Below, piece after piece: positions 3,989 through 46,582 of a DNA stretch of 64,000 nt. The stretch is taken from positions 434,001-498,000 of the forward strand of contig CAJYDM010000001.1 in assembly GCA_913757435.1 (NCBI GenBank), read 5' to 3'. This DNA comes from Syntrophomonas sp. DTU019 (GTDB lineage: Bacteria; Bacillota; Syntrophomonadia; Syntrophomonadales; Syntrophomonadaceae). Within the stretch, counting starts at the first letter, position 1; each line of letters opens with the position of its first letter. A program made the position numbers and the translations under genes. Below the pieces are notes generated by a model, which saw nothing but the letters and a program-made list of their open reading frames with translations, was not told where the DNA came from and ran no database searches.

Positions 3989-4456
3989 CAACCCATTTCC
4001 AACAGCATTTCCAACAGAGGGACCTTCTAAGAGGGATCAATCTGACAAAGAAGGCTAAAATTCCCCTTAATTGGGTGAAACTTGAGCCCTTAATCTACCT
4101 TGCGCAAAATTTTTGATTGTCTAGAAGAATGATGTCGCTGCCTGTAGAGCTGTGGAAAGGAATCCTTTCTCCGGGTTGTTTTGGTTTGGTCGCTTAAACA
4201 ATGCCACAAAAAGTTGCTTTCCTTTTCGCTTTTTCTGAAAAGATCCATTTAGTTATTCTGGAAACCATCACAGCAGCGATTTCGTTCTTCTTGTGTCCCA
4301 TACAGCTGATGTCCCAGTGTGACTGCGACCCGGAATACTCACAAGGGATTCTTTTCCCTAAAAACCAAGGTAACTTAATGTAATCGCGGTAAATAATGAT
4401 TGCCAAATATGGTAGTATTTTATAAAGAACGTTTGTTCCCGAGAGGAGAATTAAGT
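3989..4456. other. Intergenic stretch without a convincing gene
   Basis: About 470 bases between the EF-hand gene and the endonuclease. It is less GC-rich than its surroundings. A 70-codon minus-strand reading frame (4194-4406) exists, but it has no ribosome site and no family signature. No clear terminator or promoter stands out. Confidence 0.5.
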
Positions 4457-5503
4457 GTGTTTGGCTCTAAAGAAGAATTGATCCAATACCTTTATGTCCA
4501 TTACCCTGAGGAAAAGAATGAGGTACTTGCCAGGCAGCTTGGTATTTCCAAAACTGCCCTGGCCACTATAGCGTCACGGAATAATATTAAGAAGAGTTCA
4601 TCCTTTTTGAAAAAACAACACGAAGAACTCATGTTAGCCAAACTAAAAAAATACAATAAGAATTTGAAATCTTATATCTTAAGCCAGCGGGAACAGAATA
4701 TTTTGGCCGGCAGTATTTTGGGAGATGGCAGTTTAGCCCTTTATGGCAGAAGTAAACACGCACATTACAGGGAACATGGGGCCCCAGCTCAGCTTCCCTA
4801 TCGTTTATGGAAAGTACAACAATTAGCCGGTCTCGATTTTAAAGCAGACCGTTCCGGTAACATTTCTTCCCCCAGCAATCCCCTTTATACGGAATTAATG
4901 CACCATTTCTACCAAGATGGCAGAAAGATCATTCTCCCCGAAAATCTGCAATTATTGAGCCATCCTATTGGCCTAGCTTGCCTGTATATGGATGACGGCA
5001 GTTTGGTAATTGATATCAATCGTAAGAAAAATCGCTTTTACCTATTTCCTCGTATTTATATTTACAGCCTTAATTTCACCCGCGAAGAAAACCAGTTGCT
5101 GCGTGATCATTTAGAGAACAGATTTGGCATCCCCTTTAAGCTGAAGAAGCACCCTGACGGTGAAGGAACGATGTTAGAGCTTAACCGACGTAATGAAGTT
5201 CTAAGCTTTATCCAGCTTATCGCACCCTTCGTGGAGCAAATACCATGCATGACTTATAAAATTGAAGCTGAAAAACGAATGCAGTCGACAAAAGCACGGC
5301 TGGAGCGAGATGGCAGACAGAATATTATTCTTTCCCCTTTGGAAATAGAATGTCAGAACTACAGCGCCAGCGCTGTGGATAAAATTATTCAGCTAAAGAA
5401 TCAGGGTATTCCCGACCGTATCATTGCTGAGCAGTTAAGGCGCAGTTATTGGGGCATAGTTGATAAAATCAGGCGATTACGCCAAGAAGAATTGCTTGAA
5501 TAA
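4457..5503 (+). CDS. Free-standing LAGLIDADG homing endonuclease with flanking helix-turn-helix regions
   Basis: A monomeric LAGLIDADG endonuclease would make a double-strand break at a long target site to drive homing. Both signature helices are visible: ILAGSILGDGS (residues 82-92) and GLACLYMDDGS (171-181 or so), each ending in the acidic residue used for metal binding. The N-terminal 45 residues (ARQLGISKTALATIASRNNI) and the C-terminal 50 (IIAEQLRRSYWGIVDKIRRL) look like helix-turn-helix DNA-binding units. The frame is open from a TTG at 4400, but GAGAGGAG eight bases before GTG 4457 makes that the better start (348 residues). It lies outside the group I intron, convergent with flagellin, 150 bases beyond the second flagellin tail. 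Base composition is more AT-rich than the neighbours, which fits a mobile gene. Confidence 0.85.
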   Translation: MFGSKEELIQYLYVHYPEEKNEVLARQLGISKTALATIASRNNIKKSSSFLKKQHEELMLAKLKKYNKNLKSYILSQREQNILAGSILGDGSLALYGRSKHAHYREHGAPAQLPYRLWKVQQLAGLDFKADRSGNISSPSNPLYTELMHHFYQDGRKIILPENLQLLSHPIGLACLYMDDGSLVIDINRKKNRFYLFPRIYIYSLNFTREENQLLRDHLENRFGIPFKLKKHPDGEGTMLELNRRNEVLSFIQLIAPFVEQIPCMTYKIEAEKRMQSTKARLERDGRQNIILSPLEIECQNYSASAVDKIIQLKNQGIPDRIIAEQLRRSYWGIVDKIRRLRQEELLE

Positions 5504-7987: not shown

Positions 7988-9424
7988 CTACCGGCCGGAA
8001 GGGTTGCTAAACTGCTGAGCCAGCCACTGGCTCTGGGCATTCATTCGCTGAATAGCTTGTTCCATAGCTGTGAATTGCCGATAATATCTGTTCTCCACCT
8101 CTAGCAGACGCTCTTCCAGGCTGCTGATTCGCTTATTCACCCCGTCTATCTCCCGCCCCAGGCTGCTGTTGTCAACCCCCGCACTTACAGTGCCTGCGGT
8201 ATTGGTAATCTGCTTCATGCTGGCATTGACCTGATCATAGAGCCTGACGGCTATACCCTGGTCGGTGCCCTCAACACTATTGGTGAACAGCTTCATGACC
8301 CCTTCCGGGTCCAGGCTCAAGGCGGTGCGAAGTTTATCCTCGTCGAGATATAACTTACCCTGATCCTGCCATCCAGCGGTAGTGATGCCAATTGCGCTCA
8401 GGCTGGAGTATTTGCCTGTATCGGCAACGGTAGCCGAGGTCTGGTTGCGTATAACGCTGTACAAGTTAAAGAGAGTCGAGTCGCTGCGCAACAGCCCGCT
8501 TTTGGCCTTCTCTTCCCACAGTTCGATCTCTTTTTCTTTCATTTCCTTTTTCTGTTCATCACCTAGGGGGGCAAAGTCGCGGTAGCGTTTTTCACCTAGC
8601 TTCTCGGCTATGTATCCTACTGCGGCATTGTATTTTTCCACAAAATCCTTGATCTTCTCCACCGCATTGTCAATATTGGTGCTTACGTTCATATCCACGG
8701 TTTGGCCCGCTTTTAACAGATTGAAGTTGATATTATTGAAGGTGAAGCGGTTGGAGGAGAAATTCAGTTCCTGCCCACCGTTGAATTTTATTGCTGCATC
8801 AACGCCCTGCACCATGGTCAGGTCTACATTTAAGGTAGAGCCCAGAAAACCATCGGTGTCTTCCAGCTCAATTTTGGCGTCAATGCCGCTGCCGGAGGTG
8901 AAAAGATAGAATTTGTTCAGGCCGGAATCGTATGTAGCCCTGATTCCGGTGGCGGTCTGCTGTTCATTGATTTTTGCCACTACCGTCGCTATGGTATCCC
9001 CATTCTCAACGGTGATGGTGGCGGAGCCAGCCTTTCCATTCAGAGTAAAGGAAGCATCTCCTCCGCTGTGCACATAATCACTGCTTATCGGGGTGCTTTC
9101 CTTGCTGGCACCCCGGGCTAAACGAATCACTTCTATACTGAAACTGCCTTCTACCGCACTGCTGGCGGCAGTGGCGGTGAGAACCGCCGCATCTGAAGAA
9201 GTGACCGTTTTGGCTTGAAAAGTGCCCTGAAGTTTCAAATTGAGCAGAGAACTGCGCAAGGCCAAAAGTTTGGTATTGGCTTCCCGGTACTGCTCGCGCT
9301 TCCATTCCAGGATCTGCTTCTGCTGGCGCACCACGTCCACACGCGCGATCTCAGCCTTCATGGCTTCTTTGATTATGCTTTCAGTGTCGAAACCACTGGC
9401 TAATCCTGATATCCTGATAGCCAT
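7988..9424 (-). CDS. fliD: Flagellar filament cap protein FliD
   Basis: Hook-associated protein 2 caps the growing filament and helps flagellin subunits fold at the tip. The ATG at 9424, six bases after GGAGGG, gives 478 residues beginning MAIRISGLASGFDTESII, the typical FliD N-terminus. A GTG six codons upstream overlaps the ribosome site and is less likely. Residues near 20-60 form the N-terminal coiled coil (VVRQQKQILEWKREQYREAN). The C-terminal FliD domain ends in LEERLLEVENRYYRQFTAMEQAIQRMNAQS. It follows csrA with a 14-base gap and is closed by its own terminator. Confidence 0.96.
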   Translation of the reverse strand: MAIRISGLASGFDTESIIKEAMKAEIARVDVVRQQKQILEWKREQYREANTKLLALRSSLLNLKLQGTFQAKTVTSSDAAVLTATAASSAVEGSFSIEVIRLARGASKESTPISSDYVHSGGDASFTLNGKAGSATITVENGDTIATVVAKINEQQTATGIRATYDSGLNKFYLFTSGSGIDAKIELEDTDGFLGSTLNVDLTMVQGVDAAIKFNGGQELNFSSNRFTFNNINFNLLKAGQTVDMNVSTNIDNAVEKIKDFVEKYNAAVGYIAEKLGEKRYRDFAPLGDEQKKEMKEKEIELWEEKAKSGLLRSDSTLFNLYSVIRNQTSATVADTGKYSSLSAIGITTAGWQDQGKLYLDEDKLRTALSLDPEGVMKLFTNSVEGTDQGIAVRLYDQVNASMKQITNTAGTVSAGVDNSSLGREIDGVNKRISSLEERLLEVENRYYRQFTAMEQAIQRMNAQSQWLAQQFSNPSGR

Positions 9425-38593: not shown

Positions 38594-39187
38594 CTATATA
38601 GTATTAGCCCCTCCATTTCTGCCCGGTTTTCCCAGGCCATTGTGGATCAGATCCAGGGACCCGGCTAAGAGACGCGCGGCCTTGAGCAACAACTGCTCCC
38701 GGTTGAGGTTCTTTCCTGATTGTTGCTGCAAAGCGTCATATAGCTGCCTGCCGCTATGCATCTGCTGTATCACATGATTAATGCTGCTCAGCACTGATAC
38801 TTCCATCCCGTTGCGTATCCGCAGGATAGTGCCCCCACCCTCCTTGGGCTCCAGGTCCGCTATGTAGCGCCAATCCATGTAACCGTAACAGCAATCATCT
38901 TTGACCCGCGCGGTCCTCATCTTCACCGGTATGAACACCCGCTCATGGTTGAGGTAAAAAGGCAAGAGCTTGCGCCTCTGCAGCGAGGCTCGCAGTTGCC
39001 GGCCTTGTTCTTTTAAGTCCATTACATAACACCTGGCTAAGGCCTTCTTAACAGTGCGCACATTGCGCTCATCCTTTGATATTGAACCATCCTCCAGCAG
39101 CAGCCGGGTTATGTCCCCATTCTCCTCGTAAGCGGGGATGAGGGCGATGATGTTTTCCCGGACTGATTCTACCGTTCCATAGGACAT
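38594..39187 (-). CDS. Possible ComK-like protein
   Basis: 197 residues. The middle part (about 45-140) recalls the competence regulator ComK: a CY pair after a lysine-rich helix, PFYLNHERVFIPVKMRT where ComK has a phenylalanine-proline-threonine stretch, CCYGYMDWRYIADL where ComK has its CGWI-HVH block, then LRIRNGMEVSVLSSINHVIQQM. The order fits, but identity is low and judged by eye. No DNA-binding proof. It stands alone between the S8 gene and galE. A comF gene exists at 14.4 kb. Otherwise hypothetical. Confidence 0.45.
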   Translation of the reverse strand: MSYGTVESVRENIIALIPAYEENGDITRLLLEDGSISKDERNVRTVKKALARCYVMDLKEQGRQLRASLQRRKLLPFYLNHERVFIPVKMRTARVKDDCCYGYMDWRYIADLEPKEGGGTILRIRNGMEVSVLSSINHVIQQMHSGRQLYDALQQQSGKNLNREQLLLKAARLLAGSLDLIHNGLGKPGRNGGANTI

Positions 39188-40436: not shown

Positions 40437-41648
40437 CTATTGCTTTTTTTGCCTGCCTGCCATCTCTTGCCCGGCCCGATAGAGCAGATAGAGGGGCTGC
40501 CACCAGCGCCGCCCGGGTTGGGAACTGCCGACTCTCCAGTGAGGTACCGCCCTGGGGTCAAACAAGTAGTACCCCAAAACCCGGCCCTTGTCGCGGTGTT
40601 TCAGCGGCAGCAGCATGTAAGCCATGTACTGTCCTCTTTTGCTGACCGGGCTGAACAGGCGGCGGCGATAAAAGGCATACTCCCCGGGAATCGCTTTTCC
40701 GTTCCAGAATGACTGCCACGGCGGCACCCCCTCAGGTTTAAGCCCGGTCTCATCCTCCACCATGCGCAAGACAACGGCGATGGCCTTGCGAAAGTCAGGT
40801 GTACCGGCCATCTGGCGAATAAGATCCCAGTCCAGTTCTAACCCCAATGTCTTCAGCATAAGGCATATATCCAGAAACCACTTCACCCCTTGAAACTGAT
40901 GGTGTAAGGCGAAATGGCTGACAATATGCAGGAATTGCATCTCCCAGCCCAGCGCGTTGAAATCCCAGTCCCCGGCCCGGGTCCGACGCGTATAACTCAT
41001 CCAGGGGTATGCTTCGATGGGAAACAGTGCTTTTAACGGAGAACCTTCCCATAAACCATCTATCCCCCAGTGTATGTCTAAATTGATCTTAAACTGGCCC
41101 AGATTCCTGGAGTATTGCATCTCGCTGCAGTAGGTTTCAGCGATCTGTTGGTAATCCTGCAGGGATCCGCGAAAATCGGCGGTCATCTGCGCCTGGTAAC
41201 CCAGCCCCCGCAAAATATCCCGCACCCGTGCATAGTCGCTCCGTCTGATGTATATGTCCAGATCGCTGATCGGACGCAGAGCACTATTAGGGTACAGTCC
41301 TTCCACCAAAGAAAAACCCTTTAAGACCAGGTAAGGGATCTGCTCTGCTTCCAAGCGGGAAGTTATTTTTATACCTTCCCGTTCGTAAAGCGCAGTTTGC
41401 AAGGCAATCATCTGGGCTGGCTGCTTTAAGGCCATTGCTAAATGGGGGGAAAGGTTCCATTCCGGGCGGCTTCGGATTTGATGATACACGAGGCCCGCCA
41501 GCCCATGCTTGGTGATATCCTGGGCAACGGCCTCCTGGTCACATTCCAGCCATTGCCGTTGTAGTTCGGCAAGGGGTAAGCTGCCAAACAGTACTTTTAA
41601 AAATGTACGTATAAATTCATTATTACTAGCTTTGGGCATGCTGTCCAC
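40437..41648 (-). CDS. NTP_transf_5-type nucleotidyltransferase, last gene of the RiPP operon
   Basis: 403 residues. The core (about 90-150) has LVLKGFSLVEGLYPNSALR followed by PISDLDIYIRRSD, with the DxD metal motif of minimal nucleotidyltransferases. Later blocks (DIHWGIDG, HIVSHFALHHQFQGVKWFLDI) match the putative nucleotidyltransferase family seen in some lasso-peptide and polysaccharide loci (PadeN-like). The acceptor is unknown. Start is GTG 41648, directly after the radical SAM stop codon. Confidence 0.82.
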   Translation of the reverse strand: MDSMPKASNNEFIRTFLKVLFGSLPLAELQRQWLECDQEAVAQDITKHGLAGLVYHQIRSRPEWNLSPHLAMALKQPAQMIALQTALYEREGIKITSRLEAEQIPYLVLKGFSLVEGLYPNSALRPISDLDIYIRRSDYARVRDILRGLGYQAQMTADFRGSLQDYQQIAETYCSEMQYSRNLGQFKINLDIHWGIDGLWEGSPLKALFPIEAYPWMSYTRRTRAGDWDFNALGWEMQFLHIVSHFALHHQFQGVKWFLDICLMLKTLGLELDWDLIRQMAGTPDFRKAIAVVLRMVEDETGLKPEGVPPWQSFWNGKAIPGEYAFYRRRLFSPVSKRGQYMAYMLLPLKHRDKGRVLGYYLFDPRAVPHWRVGSSQPGRRWWQPLYLLYRAGQEMAGRQKKQ

Positions 41649-43064
41649 TCAGTTCTTCCCTTGATGGGAGATGTTTTGCCTGGCCTTCATGGTAAAGAAG
41701 GACCACAAACGTCGGGGGCTGTTGGTGCGAATTGTATTATACCGGCGTATTAACCGTTGATATGGCTCGTAATGCTTCCTCATCCAGGCGGCGCGTTCCT
41801 CAGCAGTAAGGGCGGAAAGATTCTGCTGATAATAGTACTCCCGGACTGCCTCCTTGCTCCAGGGTATAGCCTCGAATACGCCCGGTCGAAGGCGCTCGTA
41901 CAGACGGGTTCCGGGATGTATCTCCAATTGCGACCAGCTGAAAGAATATGGCTTCACCTTTTTCAGCCAATCCAGGCGCTGCTCCAGATCGGCCATGGTT
42001 TCGCCTTCAACCCCGGTCAGCATATAACAGTGAATGCCTAGCCCGGCCTCCCGGCAAATCTTAATAGCCCGTTCATTGACCTCCACTGTGCTGTCTTTGT
42101 GCATTAGATCCAACACAGCCTGTGAAGACGATTCGATTCCCACCTCTATGATCACGCAGCCAGCCTGTTGGAGCCGTTTTACCAAATCTGGTTCAATATT
42201 CTCTGCGCGCGCCTGAATGCCCCAAATTATTCGCTTGTGAAGGCCACGCTTTATAAATAGGTCGCAAATCTTCTCAGCCCGGGCCCGGTTGATCAGAAAG
42301 TCATTGTCATGAAAATAGATGCCTTCAATGCCATAATCCTTATATACCTGATAAGCCAGTTCAGCCACATATTCGGGGCTGTGAAAGCGCACCCCTTTGC
42401 CGTAGGTTAATGATTCCGAGCAGAATTCACACTTTTTAACACAGCCGCGCGAGGTCAAGAGTGAGACGGTGGAAACATAGCGGTGGCGAATAGTATCCAG
42501 GCTGCGGTTGAGATAGTAACTCAAGTCCAGACTTGAAAAAACCGGGAAAGGGAGTTGGTCCAGATCGCCAATCTGTTGGGGTGGGCTGCCAATAATAAAG
42601 CCATTCTCCCTGAACCATAGCCCGGGGATGTCCCTAGGATCGCGGCCCTCGATGAATTGCAGCAGGGAGTATTCCCCTTCCCCGGATATTACTGCGTCCA
42701 ACTGGGGTATTTTGCGGAGGGTTGCTTCGGGGAGGGCAGTCACATGATGACCCCCGGCCAGTATAGGACCATCGAAAATCTGGCGTACCATGCTGGCACA
42801 ATCCACCAGATCATAGACCAGTGGGGATACAGAATTAAAGGCTACCACATCCGGCTGGAATTCGCTGAAGGCCTGCAGCATGGCCCTATCTACTGCGGAT
42901 TTGTCCTGTCCCAGGCGGAATTGCGCCGCATAGCGGTCAACGGTTTTAACCTCATGCCCGGCTTGGAGCAGGGGTGCTGCCAGGTAGGAGAGGCTGAGAG
43001 GCATCCAGGTCGAAGGAGGCATTACTTTGAAACTGGCGTATGGATAGATGAGCAAAATCTTCAC
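41649..43064 (-). CDS. B12-binding-domain radical SAM enzyme
   Basis: 471 residues. The N-terminal 150 residues have a Rossmann-type B12-binding domain (IYPYASFKVMPPSTWMPLSL; GPILAGGHHVTALPE; ISGEGEYSLLQFIEG), lacking a clear DxHxxG cobalt-ligand motif. The radical SAM domain has SRGCVKKCEFC with Cys208, Cys212 and Cys215 for the [4Fe-4S] cluster, then the GIEGIYFHDNDFLIN and VEVGIESSSQAVLDLMHK blocks. Such enzymes methylate or rearrange unreactive carbons. In this operon a peptide or lipid substrate is possible but not shown. It follows DUF362 by nine bases. Confidence 0.9.
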   Translation of the reverse strand: MKILLIYPYASFKVMPPSTWMPLSLSYLAAPLLQAGHEVKTVDRYAAQFRLGQDKSAVDRAMLQAFSEFQPDVVAFNSVSPLVYDLVDCASMVRQIFDGPILAGGHHVTALPEATLRKIPQLDAVISGEGEYSLLQFIEGRDPRDIPGLWFRENGFIIGSPPQQIGDLDQLPFPVFSSLDLSYYLNRSLDTIRHRYVSTVSLLTSRGCVKKCEFCSESLTYGKGVRFHSPEYVAELAYQVYKDYGIEGIYFHDNDFLINRARAEKICDLFIKRGLHKRIIWGIQARAENIEPDLVKRLQQAGCVIIEVGIESSSQAVLDLMHKDSTVEVNERAIKICREAGLGIHCYMLTGVEGETMADLEQRLDWLKKVKPYSFSWSQLEIHPGTRLYERLRPGVFEAIPWSKEAVREYYYQQNLSALTAEERAAWMRKHYEPYQRLIRRYNTIRTNSPRRLWSFFTMKARQNISHQGKN

Positions 43065-43073
43065 TATTGACTC

Positions 43074-44003
43074 CTAATACTCATATAGCCGGTAGCACTG
43101 CCACTCAGCAGCAGGCCACACCATAGCCGCATGCTGTAGTTGCGGCATTTCCAGGGGATCGGAACGGAAGTTCTCCACACAGTGGTGCCGTTGCTTGATC
43201 TGCAACAGTTCTCGGTAGGCCTGCAGATCAACCGCCGCGGGATGATCTCCGGCCAGTATCACTCCGGCGGGAGCGGTGGTTCCGACTGCCGGGCCGCCGG
43301 TAATCATGGCCACGCGACCGTCAATTATGTTGAGGTCAGCCATTACCGCCAGATTCAGCTCAACAATTTTCTGCTGCAGGTGGTCCTGGTGCAAGTTGCG
43401 CCTTTCCAAAGGGTGCACGTTCCCTACAGCGGCCTTCATGGCCATGCTGAAATCAGCCCAACGGTGCGTCTTGAGGTTGGTCAGGCTGATGATTCGGTCC
43501 ACCTCATAAACAACCGCAGGTACAGTGACGGCCTTCAGAAACTGGCCTGGCACAGACACTTCTACCCATTCCATTTCATCGAAAAATATAGGCTCGGCCA
43601 GCCCGGTTACAACCCGATCCAGGCCGATTGCACGGGCGGTTTTTCTGGTGGGCAGGCTGCTCAAGGAGGCGCAGTCGCCGACTAATATATCGTTGACTCC
43701 GCTGCGGTGCAGAAATTTCAGAAATTCCTTCAGAAAAACCGGGCAGGTCGAGGCCGGATACGGGTCCGCGGTGTTGAGGTTAACCTTGACCAGAACGCGC
43801 TGCCCCGCAAACCACTCATTCCACAAATCCTGCCAGACCGGCCAGGCCTTTTCCCAGGGATCACCGTGTGCCGCAAGGCGCAGTACACAAGGAGGTCGGT
43901 CCGGAGCCACCTTTTGTCGCGGTTCTCCTCGACTCATGGTTCGTTTGTTTTTAAGTACTGCCGGAGCAAAAACTTTTTTAACCAAATTTCGAAATTTTCT
44001 CAT
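43074..44003 (-). CDS. DUF362 family protein
   Basis: 309 residues with the DUF362 pattern: RVLVKVNLNTADPYPASTCP (about 69-88), LVGDCASLSSLPTRKTARAIG (near 107-127), DRIISLTNLKTHRWADFSMAMKAAVGNVHP (near 165-195) and IDGRVAMITGGPAVGTTAPAG (near 224-244). No ferredoxin cysteine motif is present, unlike longer DUF362 proteins. Biochemical role unknown. The start overlaps the kinase stop by ATGA, so the two are tightly coupled. The basic N-terminus is not a signal peptide. Confidence 0.85.
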   Translation of the reverse strand: MRKFRNLVKKVFAPAVLKNKRTMSRGEPRQKVAPDRPPCVLRLAAHGDPWEKAWPVWQDLWNEWFAGQRVLVKVNLNTADPYPASTCPVFLKEFLKFLHRSGVNDILVGDCASLSSLPTRKTARAIGLDRVVTGLAEPIFFDEMEWVEVSVPGQFLKAVTVPAVVYEVDRIISLTNLKTHRWADFSMAMKAAVGNVHPLERRNLHQDHLQQKIVELNLAVMADLNIIDGRVAMITGGPAVGTTAPAGVILAGDHPAAVDLQAYRELLQIKQRHHCVENFRSDPLEMPQLQHAAMVWPAAEWQCYRLYEY

Positions 44004-45010
44004 CTCATCACGCCCTCGGCCAACTCTCTGACGATATCGGCAAATTGTGCCATGTCAGTTCCAAAATCCAGTTGATAACAGGGTACAGTAGAAAGAAAAT
44101 CCATGAGGAAGTTGAATCTCTTAGTAGCAGCCTCCCGGTTGTCCCAGGCTTTCATGGTTACGGGGAAAAACTCTCCTACCACCCGGGTGGGATTGATCGG
44201 TGTCAGGCTGCTGTAAGGTTGGCCGGAGCGGTTGATAACCAGGAATTGCTTTAATTCGGTATGGGAGCGCCATCCGTCTGGGGTGATAGTACCGCATCTG
44301 AAATAATGTTCATCGTCGACCGACCCGTATGCCTGGTCCATGGGCAGGCCGGGAAAGAAGCTCACCCGGGCTGTTTCTCTGACCTTGATTATATCTGATA
44401 TGCTGCAGCCCTTATAGCCGTCGTCCTGCTTTGAAACCAGTATACGCTCATCAGACAAAACTTTAAATCCATGCTGCAGCAAGGCGAAAATCGCCGTGGA
44501 TTTGCCGCGACCGCTGTTGCCGCTGATCATAATCCCCGTACCCTGATAATCTACACAGCCGGCATGAACCGCAAACTGGTCATAATACACCATCAGCTGG
44601 TTAACCAGATTATAGGTAAAGAGCATATCGGTGTATAAGGGCAGGATATCATGGCCAGCCAGTATTACCACCCGGGCCGAGGCCTCATTTGAGCTCACAT
44701 AAGAACGGGCATAGCCCTGGTAATCAGTCCACTGTCCGCTGTGATTGCGAAAAGAACGCACCGTTACCGGTCGGTTGAGCAAAAGAGTAAAGTCCGGGAT
44801 GTTTTGTGCCGTGTCGGGTAAAGGCATGATCCGGTCGATCTGTCCGGGATCTATAACACTCAATTGTAGGGAAAGGTGCGGGGCGCCAGCCTCGGCGGAG
44901 GCTATGTTCAGATAGCTGCCCAGTTCTCTGGCCAGGCCTGGGCTGTATTCAATACGGAGGGTATATCCTGACAGGTTGTACCATCTTACCAGTGATTCTT
45001 CTTGTTGCAT
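44000..45010 (-). CDS. HprK-like kinase of the RiPP operon
   Basis: 336 residues from ATG 45010, with AAGGAT upstream; an open frame begins 29 codons earlier inside the B2 gene. It has the P-loop GNSGRGKST (164-172) after QFAVHAGCVDYQGTGIMISG, and DERILVSKQDDG (about 184-195), as in HPr kinase-related proteins of lasso and other RiPP loci. In paeninodin biosynthesis such a kinase (PadeK) phosphorylates the precursor's C-terminal serine. Here the substrate is unproven, but two of the three facing mini-genes contain serine near their ends. Confidence 0.85.
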   Translation of the reverse strand: MQQEESLVRWYNLSGYTLRIEYSPGLARELGSYLNIASAEAGAPHLSLQLSVIDPGQIDRIMPLPDTAQNIPDFTLLLNRPVTVRSFRNHSGQWTDYQGYARSYVSSNEASARVVILAGHDILPLYTDMLFTYNLVNQLMVYYDQFAVHAGCVDYQGTGIMISGNSGRGKSTAIFALLQHGFKVLSDERILVSKQDDGYKGCSISDIIKVRETARVSFFPGLPMDQAYGSVDDEHYFRCGTITPDGWRSHTELKQFLVINRSGQPYSSLTPINPTRVVGEFFPVTMKAWDNREAATKRFNFLMDFLSTVPCYQLDFGTDMAQFADIVRELAEGVMR

Positions 45011-45014
45011 ATGA

Positions 45015-45464
45015 TTATCCTTCAAAAAAGGTCGTATATTGCTCCAGCGAACCTGGTTCTTCATGGTAGGGCTGTCCGTCCAACACCAGCCAGCCATGGC
45101 CCTGCAAATCAGAACCGTCTTTTTTTACCCCGATGACCACGCGTGTATTCAGGCCCTGTTTAGCGCACCAGTGATGCAAAACCAGGCTGCGTCTCAGGCA
45201 GGGTCGTGAACTTCGCCCTATCCTGGTCATCCAATAGGTTGCTCCCCGGTAAATCTTATCCATGGTGTTGAACTGACTGGATGTAGGGGCGGGCATATCT
45301 GCTCCAGTTGTTGGCAGATCTGGTTTTATGGCATGAATTTTATCCAATATCTGCGGAAGTGAGCGCATACGCAACAGGCATTCATAGTAAAACAGCAAAC
45401 CTCCAACCCACGCCAGGAGAAGCAAATCCTTTGGGAAATGAAAACCTTTATATCGACACACCAA
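45015..45464 (-). CDS. Lasso-peptide B2-type transglutaminase-fold protease
   Basis: 149 residues. The catalytic triad of the McjB C-terminal/B2 family is visible: Cys89 in RPCLRRSLVLHHWC, His123 in GHGWLVLDG, and Asp129. B2 proteins cut the leader from RiPP precursors, usually after the residue preceding core Gly1. It follows the PqqD-like gene after 33 bases and precedes the kinase by four. Start TTG 45464 or GTG 45461 cannot be separated. Confidence 0.9.
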   Translation of the reverse strand: MVCRYKGFHFPKDLLLLAWVGGLLFYYECLLRMRSLPQILDKIHAIKPDLPTTGADMPAPTSSQFNTMDKIYRGATYWMTRIGRSSRPCLRRSLVLHHWCAKQGLNTRVVIGVKKDGSDLQGHGWLVLDGQPYHEEPGSLEQYTTFFEG

Positions 45465-45497
45465 GGTCTGGTCCCCTTTAAAATATCTTGGAAGCGC

Positions 45498-45758
45498 CTA
45501 ACCCAGAAGCAACTGGTATTCAGTTAATGCCGCCACCAATTCTCTGATGTCTTGAGACAAAACCTCGCGCTCCACCTCATACTCCAGGAGCAACTGATCG
45601 ATTATCTCTTCCAGGGAAGTTTTCCCATCTACTTTATTCCAGAATGAACAGGCCACCCGGTTTAAACCGAAGTACCTGCCGGTTTCAGGGTTTAGCAAAA
45701 CGGTTTCGCCGTCTACCTCCCGCCAGATTACATCCTGGTTTTTGCTCACCACAACCAC
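45498..45758 (-). CDS. PqqD/RRE-type leader recognition protein (B1)
   Basis: RiPP recognition elements bind precursor leaders and hand them to the modifying enzymes. The 86-residue protein (from GTG 45758, ten bases after AAAGGAG) has DVIWREVDGETVLLNPETG, RYFGLNRVACSFWNKVDGKTSLEEIIDQLL and a final helix, the usual PqqD layout. An open frame starts 14 codons further upstream at ATG 45800, but without a ribosome site. In lasso loci B1 binds the YxxP leader motif; all three facing mini-genes have it. Confidence 0.88.
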   Translation of the reverse strand: MVVVSKNQDVIWREVDGETVLLNPETGRYFGLNRVACSFWNKVDGKTSLEEIIDQLLLEYEVEREVLSQDIRELVAALTEYQLLLG

Positions 45759-45800
45759 AGGGCTTCCACTCCTTTGTTGTCGGTTATTGCTAAAAAGCAT

Positions 45801-45829
45801 TTTACAAGAAACTGCAAAAATTATATCAT
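45801..45829 (+). promoter_or_regulatory. Promoter of the precursor mini-genes
   Basis: TTTACA, 17 bases, TATCAT, ending 56 bases before the first mini-gene. A minus-strand TATAAT (45820-45825) for the enzyme operon overlaps it, so the two promoters are back to back. Confidence 0.55.
45820..45825 (-). promoter_or_regulatory. -10 box of the RiPP enzyme operon
   Basis: A perfect TATAAT on the minus strand, about 62 bases before GTG 45758. No good -35 is seen at normal spacing (best is TACTAA), hinting at an activator or an extended element. Confidence 0.45.
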
Positions 45830-45884
45830 ATGCCTATAAATATTAGTATGGAAGCATTTTGATTATCTAGGAAAGGAGTATTAC

Positions 45885-45983
45885 ATGATCAAGAAAGAGT
45901 ATCAAACTCCCATGGTAATCTGTTACGAGAGTCTGAATTCGATTACTGCAGGTGATGTCGCTATTTCCGGTCAAATCGGTTAA
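45885..45983 (+). CDS. RiPP precursor mini-gene 1
   Basis: A 32-residue peptide, ATG 45885 six bases after AAAGGAG. The leader is MIKKEYQTPMVICYESLNS, then ITAG. It contains the YxxP motif (Y6-P9) used by B1-type recognition domains. If the B2 protease cuts after TA, as in lasso peptides (Thr at -2), the core is GDVAISGQIG. Residues 7-9 of that core are not Asp or Glu, so a canonical lasso ring cannot form. A gene this small was below normal ORF limits; its reality rests on the ribosome site and the two homologous copies. Confidence 0.75.
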   Translation: MIKKEYQTPMVICYESLNSITAGDVAISGQIG

Positions 45984-46040
45984 TTCACATTACTTTTCAA
46001 ACAAAGAGTAACAGTGAATAGCTGAGGGAGTATGTTAGTT

Positions 46041-46100
46041 ATGTACAAGCTAAGTTATGAGAAGCCTCAGTTGATCACTTTTGAAGCGTGCGTAAAATAA
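46041..46100 (+). CDS. RiPP precursor mini-gene 2 (truncated)
   Basis: A 19-residue peptide, MYKLSYEKPQLITFEACVK, from ATG 46041 ten bases after GAGGGAG (an ATG at 46032 is too close to that site). It keeps the YxxP-x-L/V-I-x-F/Y-E pattern of the other two leaders but stops before the ITAG cleavage site and has no core. It may be a decayed copy or a leader-only product. Confidence 0.55.
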   Translation: MYKLSYEKPQLITFEACVK

Positions 46101-46203
46101 CGGCCGCAAGTAGTTCGATTGATTAAATTTGATTTCACGTGAAACAGTACATAATCTACAGCAAAATGTTGATATAGTACAAGATTTTAAAGGAGGTATT
46201 ATC

Positions 46204-46287
46204 GTGAACAAACAGAATTATGAGACTCCGCAAGTAGTAGCTTATGAGGACATGCGTACAATCACAGCGGGAGGATCCTCAGATTAA
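46204..46287 (+). CDS. RiPP precursor mini-gene 3
   Basis: A 27-residue peptide from GTG 46204, seven bases after AAGGAGG. Leader MNKQNYETPQVVAYEDMRT is followed by ITAG and the short end GSSD. The YxxP motif and the YE-x4-ITAG spacing match mini-gene 1. Expected core after cutting is GGSSD, only five residues with two serines. The strong ribosome site argues that it is expressed. Confidence 0.7.
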   Translation: MNKQNYETPQVVAYEDMRTITAGGSSD

Positions 46288-46438: not shown

Positions 46439-46582
46439 CTACTTTGGGCGCAATTTCCCAGCCACTTTGTTATAGAGGATATCAAATTCCTCTACCCGCA
46501 GCATTTTTACTAACAGCCCATATATCAGTGCTCCACTTGCTGCACAGCCCAAGAGGATAACCAGATTCCACTCGCTCCATAA
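46439..46582 (-). pseudogene. C-terminal remnant of a polysaccharide flippase-like membrane protein
   Basis: Forty-seven codons plus stop, beginning right after the stop codon of the upstream glycosyltransferase and in the same frame. The peptide (WSEWNLVILLGCAASGALIY, then LLVKMLRVEEFDILYN, ending KLRPK) has a last transmembrane helix and basic tail typical of Wzx/MurJ-type exporters. It has no own start and the rest of the gene is absent, so the gene was lost by deletion or recombination. Confidence 0.55.

Follow-up and report, generated by a model that had tools for sequence, protein, structure and literature searches.

Among the described RiPP systems closest to the locus considered here, the pathway to linear polyphosphorylated peptides (LPP) combines a discrete RRE, a YxxP leader, an HprK-like kinase and an NTP transferase. 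Popov et al. (2026, PMC13381572) reported that N33 and D70 of LppB fix the Pro and the Tyr of YxxP, and that in this cyclase-less cluster LppK phosphorylates S3 of the core without ring formation. In the Bsf lasso subfamily, the RRE assists BsfK in phosphorylating Ser3, and the B2 peptidase reads the -2 residue of the leader, Thr(-2) being the guide for B2 in most lasso systems (PMC10368454). Paeninodin-type phosphorylated lasso pathways (PadeK, ThcoK, pseudomycoidin PsmK/PsmN) include PsmN, which adds hexoses onto phospho-Ser (PMC9266682). An earlier mining effort counted S. wolfei among the species with a possible lasso cluster; several clusters from that list were left out of a later study as not found or lacking key enzymes, the reason for S. 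wolfei being unstated (PMC4289311).

The window, that is, the whole 64,000-nucleotide stretch of DNA that was analysed, belongs to a Syntrophomonas-type host genome (G000) of 3.2 Mb and 100% completeness. It harbors a minus-strand operon (45758-40437) encoding an RRE, a B2 peptidase, an HprK-like kinase, a DUF362 protein, a B12-radical SAM enzyme and an NTP_transf_5 protein, which faces precursor mini-genes (Table 1). This locus is probably, with a likelihood of roughly 70%, a RiPP cassette built of lasso-type parts without the macrolactam cyclase, whose product would be a very short linear peptide. The six genes that an earlier note had named between 40437 and 46287 were all found there, each protein scoring over the curated cut-offs for its family. 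The tight packing claimed in that note was borne out by junctions of +33, +4, -4, +9 and 0 nt, from the RRE through NTP_transf_5 and with corrected starts; an 83-nt overlap between the B2 and kinase genes was not seen, since the kinase begins at ATG 45010, a start shared with the homologous locus of Syntrophomonas sp. UBA4807 (L007). The divergent gap, previously given as 84 bases, measured 126 bp (45759-45884), because the RRE starts at GTG 45758, preceded by AAAGGAG, and not at ATG 45800, as its homologues show stops upstream of 45758.

Table 1. Features of the cassette, in window coordinates (a slash marks the predicted cut).
Feature	Position	Strand	Evidence
Precursor m1, 32 aa, MIKKEYQTPMVICYESLNSITA/GDVAISGQIG	45885..45983	+	SD GGAAAGGAG; profile E 5e-16
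Mini-gene m2, frameshift-truncated, MYKLSYEKPQLITFEACVK	46041..46100	+	Aligns with intact L007 precursor as far as the frameshift
Precursor m3, GTG start 46204, 27 aa, VNKQNYETPQVVAYEDMRTITA/GGSSD	46204..46287	+	SD AAAGGAGG; profile E 2.5e-14
Divergent promoter block, TTTACA-17-TATCAT (+ strand), minus-strand TATAAT within	45801..45838		Conserved in four loci
RRE (PqqD-like, 86 aa from GTG 45758)	45498..45758	-	PF05402 2.6e-20, PqqD 73 bits
B2 leader peptidase (TTG start)	45015..45464	-	NF033537 over cut-off; Transglut_core3 51, lasso_biosyn_B2 44.5 bits
HprK-like peptide kinase	44000..45010	-	PF07475 over cut-off; Hpr_kinase_C 35 bits
DUF362 protein, LarA clan	43074..44003	-	PF04015 1.2e-39, 137 bits
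B12-binding radical SAM enzyme	41649..43064	-	Radical_SAM and B12-binding; CxxxCxxC intact
NTP_transf_5 nucleotidyltransferase-like protein	40437..41648	-	PF14907 1.5e-43, 150 bits

The enzymes seem equipped for their predicted roles. Catalytic residues were in place and invariant in B2 (C89 and H123), which is single-copy in the host genome, and in the kinase (H149, K170, D187 and D206), whose fold matches include HprK/P and PEPCK; a His-Lys-Asp-Asp motif has been reported for lasso kinases (PMC9266682). NTP_transf_5 kept an invariant LKG...D129xD131...D191, and in the RRE N47 and D84 were invariant in six homologues, which by our own residue counting would correspond to N33 and D70 of LppB. 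The operon genes gave dN/dS values of 0.07-0.19 relative to L007. In the divergent gap, the promoter block matched 10 of 12 promoter positions, and its 21-bp core was identical across three Syntrophomonas loci.

Profile searches recovered 21 intact mini-genes across seven genomes, nearly all with a clear Shine-Dalgarno site, the start codon of the G008o2 precursor being uncertain. In these 21 precursors Y(0), P(+3) and T(+15) were invariant and the spacing from Y to T was fixed. Of the three mini-genes with a shared leader described before, m1 and m3 were intact, and m2 proved to be frameshifted and without the ITAG end, its intact relative in L007 being MDRLVYEKPKLIVFEDLSEITAFNASVPT. Comparison of m1 with its L007 homologue gave a dN/dS of 0.05 for the leader and 0.48 for the core, and the m3 leader gave 0.14 relative to its relative. 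Moreover, of the 63 class genomes searched, the leader profile matched only five, and four of these have the cassette. Taken as sequence evidence, the SD sites, the low leader dN/dS and a leader profile that tracks the cassette indicate that the precursor genes are more than chance and that selection acts on them.

The placement of the B2 cut was made by analogy, taking the invariant Thr as -2, and predicts cores of 5-13 aa. A Ser was found at core position 3-6 in all 21 (P=3e-8 by composition and 1e-4 by pooled shuffle, both values ignoring relatedness), and the cores otherwise differ strongly; within the host genome they were almost wholly different (GDVAISGQIG, GGSSD and GSISIGLS). Across the cores only the Ser and a frequent first Gly stood out, and therefore no core residue can be assigned as the target of the radical SAM enzyme.

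Some precursors were remote from the enzymes. At least one lies between tRNA-Val and ytxC/thrS in each of G000, G007 and G008, and G008 has one further remote precursor at another site. The mini-precursors of this kind, sharing the same leader, were seen at L053 9285-9374 (G000:C8), L054 8458-8742, L055 7728-8021 and L056 7151-7234, mostly at the tRNA-Val-ytxC/thrS site and with no adjoining maturation genes. In G007, a genome of 87% completeness, two remote precursors were present and B2, kinase and NTP_transf_5 were not found, hence precursors may be retained where the enzymes are not; a search of this genome for the glycosyltransferase that flanks the cassette elsewhere gave no match, the cassette being either lost or in an assembly gap.

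All six genes, their order unchanged, were found in UBA4807 (cassette proteins 72-84% identical) and in DTU019 (L008; 56-73%). A reduced form occurs in UBA1368 (G045), in which precursors, RRE, B2 and kinase lie together on one contig (L009), NTP_transf_5 lies on a separate contig in a polysaccharide locus, adjoining an ABC transporter, and a DUF362 homologue was not detected; not all related cassettes thus contain the radical SAM and DUF362 genes. Two distant Bacillota MAGs carry rearranged versions, CSMAG_2485 (L012) with all six genes at 34-51% identity and G500 (L021) with five genes on a 4.8-kb contig, the contigs of the related MAGs being short. In L012, a C-terminal fragment of B2 (8922-9014) lies directly upstream of the kinase and beside a near-identical precursor, a sign of cassette duplication and rearrangement. 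Among the genomes sampled this type of kinase is uncommon, occurring in 4 of the 63 from the class and in 3 of the 398 in the phylum sample; a contig scan with the kinase alignment detected five loci, a scan with a single kinase sequence as query detected none, and no relatives were found in plasmid and viral collections. A distant relative of the enzyme set, comprising an HprK-like kinase, an RRE and an NTP transferase, was observed in Thiomargarita (L014 9001-11519) and was left out of the comparisons.

The absence of a cyclase, claimed earlier for the operon, held at every scale searched: no lasso cyclase was found in any related locus examined, none stood beside any homologous operon, and the complete host genome yielded none. 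The Asn_synthase matches in the host were considered as cyclases and rejected, being MnmA and LarE only. Conserved mini-genes, in turn, were present at every homologous operon found, so that neither of the two outcomes named in the earlier note as refuting its reading was observed. The cyclase searches bear on the reading that this is a true lasso pathway whose cyclase is encoded elsewhere in the genome. The RRE, B2, kinase and leader are of lasso type, and one related precursor passes the NCBIfam lasso leader model; however, the Asp/Glu at positions 7-9 with a threadable tail was not found, since 17 of the 21 cores had no Asp/Glu at 7-9, several were shorter than a ring, and the four with Asp/Glu were all of 7-11 aa. 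Together with the genome search, this makes a distant cyclase most improbable, and the reading was rejected for this genome unless the cyclase belongs to a new family.

Thus, despite its RRE and B2 leader peptidase, the cassette was not filed as a lasso peptide, because the cyclase and the ring residue are absent. It shares with LPP, besides the parts named above, a core set without cyclase, nearby polysaccharide genes, a Ser close to the core N-terminus and, in G045, an ABC transporter adjoining the NTP transferase. However, the cassette has a B2 cysteine peptidase where LPP has the SpI-like LppS, cores of 5-13 aa where LppA has 45, and Thr at -2 instead of -1, and it adds the B12-radical SAM enzyme, DUF362 and remote precursors. 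No SpI-like (SipW) signal peptidase was seen among the neighbouring window genes scanned, nor an MsbA-like transporter among those scanned around the cassette. In pairwise scores the RRE matched LppB weakly (E 0.19) and was closer to TbiB1 (E 1e-12) and PbaB1 (1.5e-6). Lacking an SpI peptidase and an MsbA among the window genes scanned, and with an RRE that scores nearer to lasso RREs, it was not filed as LPP either.

Paeninodin-type systems share the RRE, B2, HprK-like kinase, nucleotidyltransferase and Thr(-2) leader, but have what the cassette lacks, namely a cyclase, a ring acceptor and a conserved C-terminal Ser; the cores of the cassette are tiny, and its leader motif is YxxP instead of WxxP. 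The Bsf subfamily (PMC10368454) shares the kinase, RRE, B2, N-terminal core Ser and YxxP leader, but closes a ring between Gly1 and Asp8 and carries Ile(-2) where the cassette has Thr(-2). A PqqD-like protein with an HprK-related protein is also the pairing of the SynChlorMet (Scm) and HPr-rel-A cassettes of NCBIfam, although the present cassette scores far under their curated cut-offs. It would best be called a B2-type, cyclase-free phospho-RiPP, with predicted chemistry. Radical SAM genes also occur in Scm cassettes.

The LPP, Bsf and PsmN precedents suggest the route proposed here. The genes, the conserved leader and the core Ser can be read directly in the DNA, as can selection on the precursors and the lack of a cyclase; we infer each chemical step, the order of the steps and export. 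Transcription from the divergent promoter would yield precursors of ~26-34 aa, whose YxxPx[V/L] leader would be bound and presented by the RRE. The HprK-like kinase would then phosphorylate the Ser at core position 3-6, perhaps repeatedly, and B2, a Cys/His peptidase, would cleave after T-x (Thr at -2) to release a core of 5-13 residues. NTP_transf_5 could add a sugar or nucleotide to the phosphate; where all six genes are present, the B12-radical SAM enzyme and DUF362, a LarA-clan protein, would act on carbon centres or on stereochemistry. The single RRE/B2 set might also serve the remote precursors in trans. The window showed no gene for exporting the peptide.

The earlier note's guess that the product is short, linear and phosphorylated is strengthened by the Ser present in each of the 21 cores and by the report of cyclase-less phosphorylated RiPPs (PMC13381572). 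It might be argued that the peptides are unphosphorylated signals and that the kinase is regulatory or acts on another partner, since diverse short cores and remote precursor loci suit a signal family. However, such an account leaves unexplained why every core bears a Ser beside a Ser-kinase homologue, and in both LPP and Bsf a kinase of this type puts phosphate on the core Ser (PMC13381572, PMC10368454), which makes the account unlikely.

Carbon modification of the peptide by the radical SAM enzyme is a guess. DUF362 belongs to the LarA clan (PMC11770544). The best PDB matches of the DUF362 model (pLDDT 66) were all lactate racemase, at a TM of about 0.3-0.4, and no sequence relative was found in PDB, so that the LarA match is a lead and not a result, given how modest the model is. 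DUF362 carries H180-x9-K190-x14-H205, invariant in five homologues and resembling H174-x9-K184-x15-H200 of LarA, in which K184 anchors the nickel-pincer cofactor and His200 is a nickel ligand. The nickel-pincer cofactor genes larE-larB-larC were observed in the host (G000:C6, L098 9645-12679), with no adjoining larA. Among the papers searched, none of those that mention DUF362 ties it to RiPPs. A bolder version, that this is a class of ultra-short linear phosphopeptide RiPPs whose core is rebuilt by DUF362 of the LarA clan together with the B12-radical SAM enzyme, perhaps using a nickel-pincer nucleotide, and whose precursors at two chromosomal sites share one RRE/B2/kinase set, is speculative and rather unlikely as a whole.

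Another reading is a small redox cofactor of PQQ or mycofactocin style, for which the core would be a scaffold trimmed and rebuilt by radical SAM and DUF362. Cofactor precursors keep a fixed core. A PqqD-like RRE, a radical SAM enzyme and very short cores would fit such a pathway; however, no fixed core residues of PQQ type were found, the highly variable cores differing almost entirely within one genome, and DUF362 is not universal, which leaves a cofactor very unlikely.

The fate of the peptide may be linked to the surroundings. In all three Syntrophomonas genomes the cassette is flanked by GalE and glycosyltransferase genes, which suggests a modified peptide attached to, or helping to build, the exopolysaccharide of the flanking genes. 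The position of NTP_transf_5 in G045, in a polysaccharide locus beside the ABC transporter, and the polysaccharide-gene setting shared by LPP clusters point the same way, but the surroundings of the L012 cassette are housekeeping genes, and the only glycosyltransferase there is inside the cassette itself. We regard this fate as possible but doubtful; since it concerns fate, it can hold alongside the preferred reading of a cyclase-free linear phosphopeptide. In the window, a C-terminal remnant of a MurJ-like flippase was observed at 46442-46570 (minus strand; 43 aa, 81% identical), intact at the same spot in L007, and the sugar-transferase gene of L007 and L008 was missing, so the polysaccharide locus has been cut down here. 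A ComK-like gene (38594-39187, minus strand; Pfam E 0.0013, under cut-off) is kept beside GalE in L007 and L008, and a LAGLIDADG-type endonuclease gene (PF03161, E 6e-20) lies at 4400-5503 (plus strand), near flagellar genes.

Altogether, the cassette would represent lasso machinery (RRE and B2) at work with no ring being closed, in what seems to be a separate lineage from LPP, and suggests what are, to our knowledge, the smallest natural substrates for the RRE and B2 machinery. Because its cores are short and variable but for one fixed Ser, the phosphorylation rule can be tested directly, and the DUF362 family, to which no function is assigned, gains a concrete candidate substrate from the co-occurrence of its LarA-clan member with a B12-radical SAM enzyme. 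The remote precursors, in turn, bear on how one recognition protein may serve dispersed substrates.
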